Source of the DNA: Syncephalis plumigaleata
Taxonomy: Eukaryota > Zoopagomycota > Zoopagomycetes > Zoopagales > Piptocephalidaceae
DNA: 45,181 nt
Direction of reading: 5' to 3'
NCBI GenBank assembly: GCA_025201365.1
Contig: JAIXMF010000079.1
Coordinates: forward strand, 1 to 45,181
Part shown: piece by piece, positions 3,156 to 26,905 of the stretch
Position numbering within the stretch: the first letter of the stretch is position 1
Layout of the letters: each line of letters begins with the position of its first letter
The notes under the pieces: generated by a model
Databases searched by the model: none
What the model was told of the DNA's origin: nothing
The model's input: the letters and a program-made list of their open reading frames with translations, nothing else
Made by a program: the position numbers and the translations under genes

Positions 3156-4827
3156 TTATTTTGATACAGATGAACGTTTCACAGAAGAAGTACGTAGTAG
3201 ATTGCGTACATAGGCCAATGCATCCGTAGGAGATACGTTTGTCTAAGGGAATAAAAGCAAAGAGTATGATATACATATACATATACATGTATGTATTAGT
3301 GTGTGATTGTATGTAATACAACTAAAACCATATACGCGATAATACTTACTACAACAGAAGTGTTTTGTGATGTTGATGATGCGGTATGATTCCTACTAGC
3401 AAGCGTACAAATATCATGTACGATATACTCCCAACCAGCTAATGGCGTGGATGTACCCGTGGATATACCGCGATTATTTACTTGCTTTCTAATCCATGGA
3501 CAATACCATCGATGTTCTAGTGCAGGATCACATGGCAATGACTCTGTCTCGGTTATTGATTCATGATGATATTGATGCTGATTACTATTACTAGTAGTAG
3601 TGTTACTATTCTGCTCCTGTTCTGGTGTAGTATTGGTCAATGGTGTATACAAGGTGAAATCTACACGTTGATAGCATAAATCACATTGTACTACCGGTGT
3701 TGTACAGTTGCTATCCTCTCGCCAACCATAGATGGCTAGGGCAATAATATTCGATTGATAGACCGTATCAAGTGATGCCATGACAGGTAATGATGCAGCC
3801 CATTCTAATAGGGTAGGCATGAAAGATGCCAGCTATCATCAATGAATAAGTATGTGGATACATTCATTAATGAGACTATTCACTATGAATACGAAATAAC
3901 ACTAATACATACCGATGTTTCTATTACAATTGGTAGCTGATTCTTCCATCGTATTATACCAGCAATACGATCTTTGAGTGCCGTTTCATTGACAGTACGT
4001 GATTGCATAGGAAATCGATAGATTGACTCTATACAATAATAAGCATTGATTACATTTATCAACTAACTAGCTAGCTTGTATAGATTAATGCTTACCATCA
4101 CAGGGTCGTTCATGCCAGGGACATACTGTCTTATGAGTAGTTAATAGTTGTGATTGATAACTTGACAAAATATCATCTACATCCATTGCACATTAGTGAC
4201 AATCGTAGTCATAGCAGTAGTAATGATATGATTAATAGCTTACTGAATTCCGGTGTGTCTGCCACAACACTGCTTAGATCGACGATTAAGCGTGCATGAC
4301 AAGTAGGACACGCTAGTAGATCCGCCTTCTCGTTGATCCATCCATGACGTGCACATACCACTGGACTAAGTGCCTCGGGTTTATCAAACCAAGTAGTGAC
4401 GTGTCATCATCATCATCAGCAATCCCATCTACTAGTTAAATAATACAACGTATAGCACATTATTCATGATAGTATTGCCTCTATGTACACATACAAAAGG
4501 ATATCTTATAGGAGGCGAGTCGTTTCAATAGGTCGGCTCTACTCCATGGTCGATAAGGACCAAGTATACCCTCGTCTTCCTGCGAACCTATAGTCTTTGT
4601 GACAGGTGATAATGGCGACGATACACTAGTCATTATCAAGAATTAGCACATATATGTATATACGTGTATATATCTATTCGGTGTAGAGTCTACCTTGCAC
4701 CAAATTGAACTACACTACGATGCGTCAGTGGTCTCTTATGTTGTGTTGCATGTGTTGATTCATCAAGTGCACTGAATACTTGAGCTAGCTTCCTTTTAGT
4801 AATAAAGTGATTAGTATGGTTCTGCAT
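3156..4827 (-). CDS. C3HC zinc-finger protein, NIPA (ZC3HC1)/Rsm1 family
   Basis: Nuclear zinc-finger family linked to nuclear-pore basket assembly (ZC3HC1/Pml39), ubiquitin ligation (NIPA) and mRNA export (Rsm1). Exons on the minus strand: 4827-4694, 4625-4505, 4400-4244, 4176-4096, 4028-3913, 3832-3350, 3242-3156, summing to 392 aa plus stop with every junction in frame. The first domain shows TTWFDKPEALSPVVCARHGW, then ACPTCHARL and VCPWHERPC, giving the Cys/His set of the C3HC finger. A second, related domain holds IYGWRED, QCDLCYQR and HRWYCPWI. The basic KRKLAQVF start resembles family N-termini. Exons 2 and 3 join only through an AT-AC intron (see the separate entry). The last exon lies in the 3' UTR territory of the coproporphyrinogen oxidase gene. 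Start ATG at 4827; an upstream non-coding exon is possible. Confidence 0.9.
4401..4504 (-). other. Probable U12-type AT-AC intron
   Basis: Read on the minus strand, the exon end TATAAG is followed by ATATCCTTTT, which matches the minor-spliceosome 5' splice consensus ATATCCTTT exactly. The intron ends ...GATGACAC before GTCACTACTTGG. Length 104 nt, phase 0. It joins RLASYK to VTTWFDKPEALS, the expected order in this protein family. The GT-AG alternative (GTATGT donor, TTAACTAG or TAGTAG acceptor) puts the finger domain out of frame, and reading back from TGG meets TGA before either AG. Branch-site candidates are TATTTAAC (about 35 nt from the 3' end, long for the class) and TTGCTGAT (about 15 nt, weak match). 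Confidence 0.75.
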
Positions 4828-7099: not shown

Positions 7100-7281
7100 T
7101 AGGATACTCATATGATTAAGGATATAATAAAAGAAACGAAAGAAAAGCATCATTGATTTATTTTGCGGGATTTAATACAGATAAAACTAAAGAGAAAAGA
7201 ACACTTTTTGTTAATAGTAAGCAAGTATATATATGTATATATTGTATATATACGTAGGCATATCATTGTGGTTATTGTAGT

Positions 7282-26823: not shown

Positions 26824-26905
26824 TGGCCAGGGTGGGGTTCGAACCCACGCCTCCGAAGAGATTACGGCCTAAACGTAACGCCTTAGACCACTCGGCCACC
26901 TGACC
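26824..26905 (-). tRNA. tRNA-Leu (anticodon TAG)
   Basis: 82 nt including the discriminator A. Acceptor GGTCAGG pairs with CCTGGCC (one T-G and one C-G pair within the stem). D-arm is GCCGAGTGGTCTAAGGC. Anticodon stem TTACG/CGTAA holds loop TTTAGGC, so the anticodon is TAG (reads CUA). The long variable arm TCTCTTCGGAGG is typical of tRNA-Leu. T-arm is GTGGG TTCGAAC CCCAC. No intron. The A box and B box are both present within the gene. Confidence 0.95.

Follow-up and report, generated by a model that had tools for sequence, protein, structure and literature searches.

A predicted U12-type AT-AC intron in a NIPA/Rsm1-like gene, and candidate minor-spliceosome components and related introns in the same genome

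A NIPA/Rsm1-like gene on the minus strand of a 45,181-nt stretch of DNA (hereafter, the window) has its reading frame broken by a 104-nt interval at positions 4504-4401, which raises the question of what this interval is and how it would be removed from the transcript. An earlier note on this DNA had interpreted it as a U12-type AT-AC intron, and this remains the best reading: we consider it very probable that the interval is an intron of this class, which a minor spliceosome with the usual composition would remove. The reading is based on the splice signals, on a join that restores a conserved domain, on the presence of parts of the splicing machinery in the genome, and on other introns of the same anatomy. 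Counting against it are a weak branch-site candidate, a branch-to-acceptor spacing of 35 nt compared with 11-26 nt in 13 other AT-AC introns, and the fact that U4atac was not found in the genome search.

The spliced model of the gene comprises 339 residues and contains a zf-C3HC domain (PF07967, 123 bits) and a NuBaID_C domain (PF08600, 53.6 bits), each scoring above its curated cut-off. The predicted product is a NIPA/Rsm1-type protein; it has both domains in common with the NIPA/Rsm1 (ZC3HC1) family, the NuBaID proteins, and displays no notable difference from them. Among solved chains, Pml39 is its best match, a weak one (E 0.037). Exon 1 (4505-4633, minus strand, as are all features of the gene) runs to the ATG and ends in RLASYK, and exon 2 (4244-4400) extends from VTTWFDKP to TPEF. 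Exons 3 (4096-4176) and 4 (3913-4028) are flanked by three predicted GT-AG introns placed by eye, namely intron 2 (4177-4243, 67 nt), intron 3 (4029-4095, 67 nt), and intron 4 (3833-3912, 80 nt), while exon 5 (3296-3832) has an open frame and encodes the NuBaID_C domain; an additional intron may be present towards the 3' end, which makes the C-terminus uncertain.

The interval that constitutes predicted intron 1 (4401-4504) begins with the minor-class 5' splice site ATATCCTTTT (4495-4504) and ends in GACAC, with the 3' splice site CAC at 4401-4403. Its removal joins AAG to GTC in phase 0 and yields RLASYK VTTWFDKPEALSPVVCARHGW. The earlier note was thus correct in placing a donor of the minor-class consensus at 4504 and an AC acceptor that rejoins the finger domain in frame. 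Two features by which U12-type introns are recognized are present, namely an RTATCCTT 5' splice site and an AT donor combined with a YAC acceptor, and the acceptor is preceded by no polypyrimidine tract (the preceding 35 nt read CTAGTAGATGGGATTGCTGATGATGATGATGACAC). The 5' splice site has the potential to pair with the 5' end of a U11 gene and with the AAGGAG of a U6atac gene, both encoded in the same genome. The donor octamer ATATCCTT is weak proof alone because it occurs four times in the 45-kb window, counting both strands; its weight comes from its placement at the join that best restores the domain. Further RTATCCYT sites were observed in the window at 7125, 35462, 36446, 30467, 25187, and 35830, and another ATATCCTTTT starts at the last base of a tRNA gene (26824-26905, minus strand, 57.2 bits).

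Pairs of terminal dinucleotides spanning at least 25 nt were listed in the stretch that extends from base 61 of a region beginning at 4636 to the TWFDKP codons. The listed pairs that preserve the TWFDKP frame consist of 9 AT-AC, 6 GT-AC, 7 CT-AC, and 3 GT-AT pairs, and of the 15 that end in AC after an AT or GT donor, 4504-4401 alone starts with a minor-class donor. Join scoring covered eight of these 15 pairs, 4504-4401 included, and one GT-AG pair, and all eight rival joins scored below 4504-4401 on zf-C3HC. In the full-length protein, the 4504-4401 join gave 123 bits as opposed to 116.1 bits for the GT-AC join 4494-4403. When the first 161 residues were scored, it gave 113.5 bits, and six other AT-AC or GT-AC joins were rejected at 106.7, 108.7, 105.6, 106.3, 103.7, and 104.8 bits. 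Retention of the interval was likewise rejected, as a stop occurs at its eighth codon (after ISFCMCT).

A major-class (U2-type) intron that uses the GTATGT at 4494 and a downstream AG acceptor would be the conventional alternative. This GTATGT, ten bases into the interval, is part of a good-looking major-class donor, GTATGTGTAC (4485-4494); however, none of the GT-AG or GC-AG pairs listed at 25 nt or longer preserves the TWFDKP frame, and the earlier note had likewise rejected the two GT-AG pairs that it saw as available. Six GT-AG pairs reach CARHGW, all with loss of TWFDKP, and the scored one (4494-4361) deletes the TWF block and falls to 90.3 bits on full-length zf-C3HC. GT-AG and GC-AG joins were rejected on these grounds, and we regard a major-class intron as very unlikely. 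That the interval reflects a pseudogene or an assembly error, to which the frame break itself might point, is more improbable still: elsewhere the modelled gene has an open frame, GT-AG introns, and the two domains, and two contigs agree. A second copy of the locus (C79:367660-368355) is 97% identical over 701 bases, and no third copy was listed in the search of the same assembly. This C79 allele retains the donor, the branch-site candidate TATTTAAC, and the CAC acceptor, and an assembly error is unlikely because the second allele keeps these signals. Between the two copies of the interval there are five base differences, and three of these convert TGATGATGATGATGA to TGCTGCTGCTGATGA just upstream of the acceptor; in the window copy this segment contains a (TGA)5 run (4404-4418) that provides five TGA stop codons in the frame of exon 2, compared with two in the C79 allele. 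Several other loci are also present twice nearly unchanged (e.g., C361/C79, C13/C25, and C112/C187), one copy often being on a short contig, and the assembly seems to retain both haplotypes of a heterozygous organism.

The U12-type reading presupposes a minor spliceosome, and the earlier note had suggested searching for its snRNAs and for proteins of the U11/U12 particle. This search was successful for U11, U6atac, SNRNP25, and, below the cut-off, a U12-like gene, and it failed for U4atac. The U6atac gene (C1:977157-977339) reached 33.7 bits when the genome was searched (cut-off 33) and 32.4 bits, just under this cut-off, in cmscan; it carries AAAGGAGAGA, with a TATA-like box upstream and a T run downstream. 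The same search also brought up the major U6 gene, which scored 77.9 bits on its own model. The U11 gene (region of C329:1275401) scored 35.7 bits in the genome search and 53.7 bits when realigned on a longer locus, the cut-off being 39. It starts with AUAAAGG and contains AUAAUUUUUUGG, a possible Sm site. Relative to the Rfam model, this gene has an insertion of approximately 70 nt near the first hairpin.

The U12-like gene (C373:829795-829977) scored 27.4 bits (E about 0.02), below the cut-off of 53. Matches below the cut-off also appeared in prokaryote controls at loose E-values (U6atac in 8 of 14, U11 in 3, U4atac in 9, and U12 in 7, none above the cut-off), and for this reason the argument for U12 rests on the conserved 5' half of the gene, which is U12-like, beginning with AUGUCUUAAUUAAUGAGUAAGGAUAUAAC followed by a matching stem. 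A search with a 19-base U12 core allowing three mismatches gave 26 matches, compared with 63 for the reversed control, and no U12 was found in 18 of the 20 loci returned or in L001 upon rescoring. The U12-like gene has a second copy at C290:45990; approximately 260 bp are shared between unrelated flanks, and the shared segment has sharp boundaries, one close to where the transcript probably starts and the other at a T-run. One copy looks as if it had been made from a transcript, and the U12-like RNA may be approximately 260 nt long, ending at the T-run as polymerase III transcripts do.

SNRNP25, which is specific to the U11/U12 particle, is encoded at C113:122023-122336. Its two exons gave 34.4 and 20.1 bits separately and 69.4 bits when joined, and the nearest solved chain is the U11/U12 25K protein (E 4.4e-8). 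It is one of two minor-specific proteins covered by the test. The other, CENATAC, was not found with its Pfam model, a result that is uninformative because the controls also lacked a match. In the model search of the genome, U4atac was not found (best match 22.4 bits, E 1.57), and a pattern for U4atac, derived by complementing the genome's own U6atac, matched the U6atac gene alone. The recovered parts of the minor spliceosome look conventional.

Introns of the same anatomy are present elsewhere in the genome. A genome-wide search for RTATCCTT followed after 20-50 bases by TCCTTRAC gave 23 matches, compared with 3 for the reversed pattern, and a version with 51-81 bases and TCCTTAAC gave 8 compared with 0. 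Copies were collapsed, and 7 of the 23 matches, in three groups (L005/L015/L020/L026; L019/L021; L022), were dropped as all having TCCTTGAC and no supportable join; this was a judgement by eye made after seeing the matches, and L027, which also has TCCTTGAC, was kept since its join is supported. The 17 distinct candidates of the strict pattern comprise 13 with AT donors and 4 with GT donors, one of the latter (L006) having no convincing acceptor and being counted for donor type only. One GT-AG candidate is located in a TCP-1 chaperonin gene (120 bits). All 13 AT candidates have an AC acceptor with which the frame stays open, and in 10 of these AT-AC introns a homologous protein spans the join: Pfam families in two xanthine dehydrogenases, DCP2, a HIT zinc finger protein, a ChAPs protein, a DHHC palmitoyltransferase, and a GOST protein, and solved structures in AIP1, exportin-4, and TAF2. 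For the other three (L010, L013, and L058), a search restricted to Pfam gave no homologue across the join. The two xanthine dehydrogenase genes (C351:17243 and C2:306072) have their AT-AC introns at the same codon and in the same phase, with branch-to-acceptor spacings of 13 and 18 nt.

Some of these proteins also bear on the nature of the organism. A yeast protein is the best solved relative of the TAF2 fragment, at 74.9 bits, and the next scored 29.2 bits; ChAPs is a fungal family. Together, the TAF2 fragment and the ChAPs protein support a fungal affinity of the genome. A GATA finger in the window did not discriminate in this respect, as it matched animal GATA-1 (115.6 bits) better than fungal AreA (69.6 bits) among solved structures.

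The branch-site candidate of the window intron is unusual in both strength and position. Its best match is TATTTAAC (4435-4442), with the branch A at 4436, which is identical in the C79 allele; its score is 6.2 bits and its distance from the acceptor 35 nt, in agreement with the earlier remark that the branch candidate is distant or weak. Eleven introns used to build the branch matrix scored 13.2-17.7 bits, a gap that is partly built in because they were chosen for TCCTTRAC. The 6.2-bit score was equalled or beaten in 4% of 2000 shuffles. Against the branch-binding segment of the U12-like gene, TATTTAAC in the canonical register forms five Watson-Crick pairs and one G-U pair with one mismatch, and the predicted duplex has -3.0 kcal/mol, compared with -6.6 kcal/mol for the consensus. 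In the 13 other AT-AC introns the branch A lies 11, 11, 11, 12, 13, 14, 18, 18, 20, 21, 22, 24, and 26 nt from the acceptor (median 18). The optimum distance is 11-13 nt according to the available text of the review PMC3584512, and the 35-nt spacing of the window intron is outside this optimum, which is a preference and not a strict criterion.

The acceptors of these 13 introns are CAC or TAC and, in every case, the first YAC at least 10 nt from the branch A, with the qualification that reading frame and homology guided the choice of acceptors and that the 10-nt minimum was fixed once the data had been seen. This rule also holds for the CAC of the window intron, at 35 nt. When random stretches of the window were taken, the first YAC at least 10 nt away occurred at a median of 29 nt, so that the rule alone does not favor short distances. 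The 13 introns also share ATATCCTT, because the pattern demanded RTATCCTT, and introns with weak branch sites would escape a search that demanded a consensus branch site. The earlier note had seen in the unusual branch site a possible pointer to a divergent minor spliceosome; a general divergence receives no support from the many introns with a textbook TCCTTRAC, although the search pattern itself required that branch site.

Two alternatives concern the branch site and its consequences. The branch point could lie nearer the acceptor, within the GATTGCTGATG stretch, at approximately 14 nt, which is within the usual range, and a duplex of this stretch with the U12 segment in another register reaches -4.7 kcal/mol compared with -3.0 kcal/mol for TATTTAAC. 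In the canonical register, however, it forms only one of seven Watson-Crick pairs and scores -3.8 bits, and the C79 allele reads TTGCTGCTGCTGCTG at this place, where the positions 7-21 nt from the acceptor contain no A; we consider such a branch point improbable. Alternatively, and as a supplement to the U12-type reading, the intron might be poorly spliced, with a fraction of the transcripts retaining it and being truncated, which would set the level of the NIPA-like protein. Compared with the other introns, it has a branch candidate with a lower score and a greater distance to the acceptor, and retention produces an early stop. Yet the comparison introns were selected for a strong branch site, and the signals common to both alleles would result from plain neutrality as well. 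Poor splicing has somewhat more in its favor than the nearer branch point and is, in our view, still unlikely.

For the U12-type AT-AC intron at 4504-4401, splicing would begin with U11 pairing with ATATCCTTT at the donor and U12 pairing with TATTTAAC around 4436. At the donor, U11 would then give way to U6atac, and the donor exon would be joined past the first YAC far enough downstream, which is the CAC at 4403-4401. We infer that growth of the TGA/TGC repeat upstream of the acceptor may have produced the weak and distant branch site. A likely parallel is the AT-AC intron of the DHHC palmitoyltransferase gene, in which the 26-nt stretch between branch and acceptor is filled by a GT repeat. 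As a tentative and rather doubtful generalization, the minor introns of this genome would be dominated by AT-AC, and its spliceosome would tolerate a long and variable branch-to-acceptor distance by taking the first YAC at least 10 nt away; the window intron would be the extreme case, its spacing stretched by the TGA/TGC repeat and its branch site eroded. A compact 32.6-Mb genome of fungal affinity that has kept the machinery along with mainly AT-AC introns would offer a small system well suited to studying how the minor spliceosome chooses its branch site and acceptor and why such introns persist, and the window intron would provide a natural test of how much branch-site weakness and distance is tolerated.

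Our literature search found no paper on the minor spliceosome in early-diverging fungi and none linking ZC3HC1 to a minor intron. As far as the available text of Larue et al. 2023 (PMC10639083) goes, Rhizophagus irregularis has 205 minor introns and Basidiobolus meristosporus has 249, none that were convincing were found in the two largest fungal groups, and GT-AG is the majority minor subtype in most species. The rarity of such introns in fungi was, in view of the first two counts, overstated in the earlier note. The available portion of Bartschat and Samuelsson 2010 (PMC2846911) gives one U12-type AT-AC intron in Rhizopus oryzae and 8-9 in Phycomyces blakesleeanus, compared with 8-12 GT-AG introns in the latter, and AT-AC makes up about 40-67% of the small Phycomyces and Phytophthora sets. 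The ratio of 13 AT to 4 GT donors found here, which comes from a strict pattern and not from a full annotation, is opposite to the GT-AG majority described by Larue et al. With known U12-type AT-AC introns, whether animal, plant, or fungal, the window intron shares the ATATCCTT donor, the YAC acceptor, the lack of a polypyrimidine tract, and the presence of minor snRNAs in the genome; it differs from them in its branch candidate TATTTAAC and in the 35 nt that separate this candidate from the acceptor. The window intron belongs to a known kind, and minor introns have already been published for several fungi.
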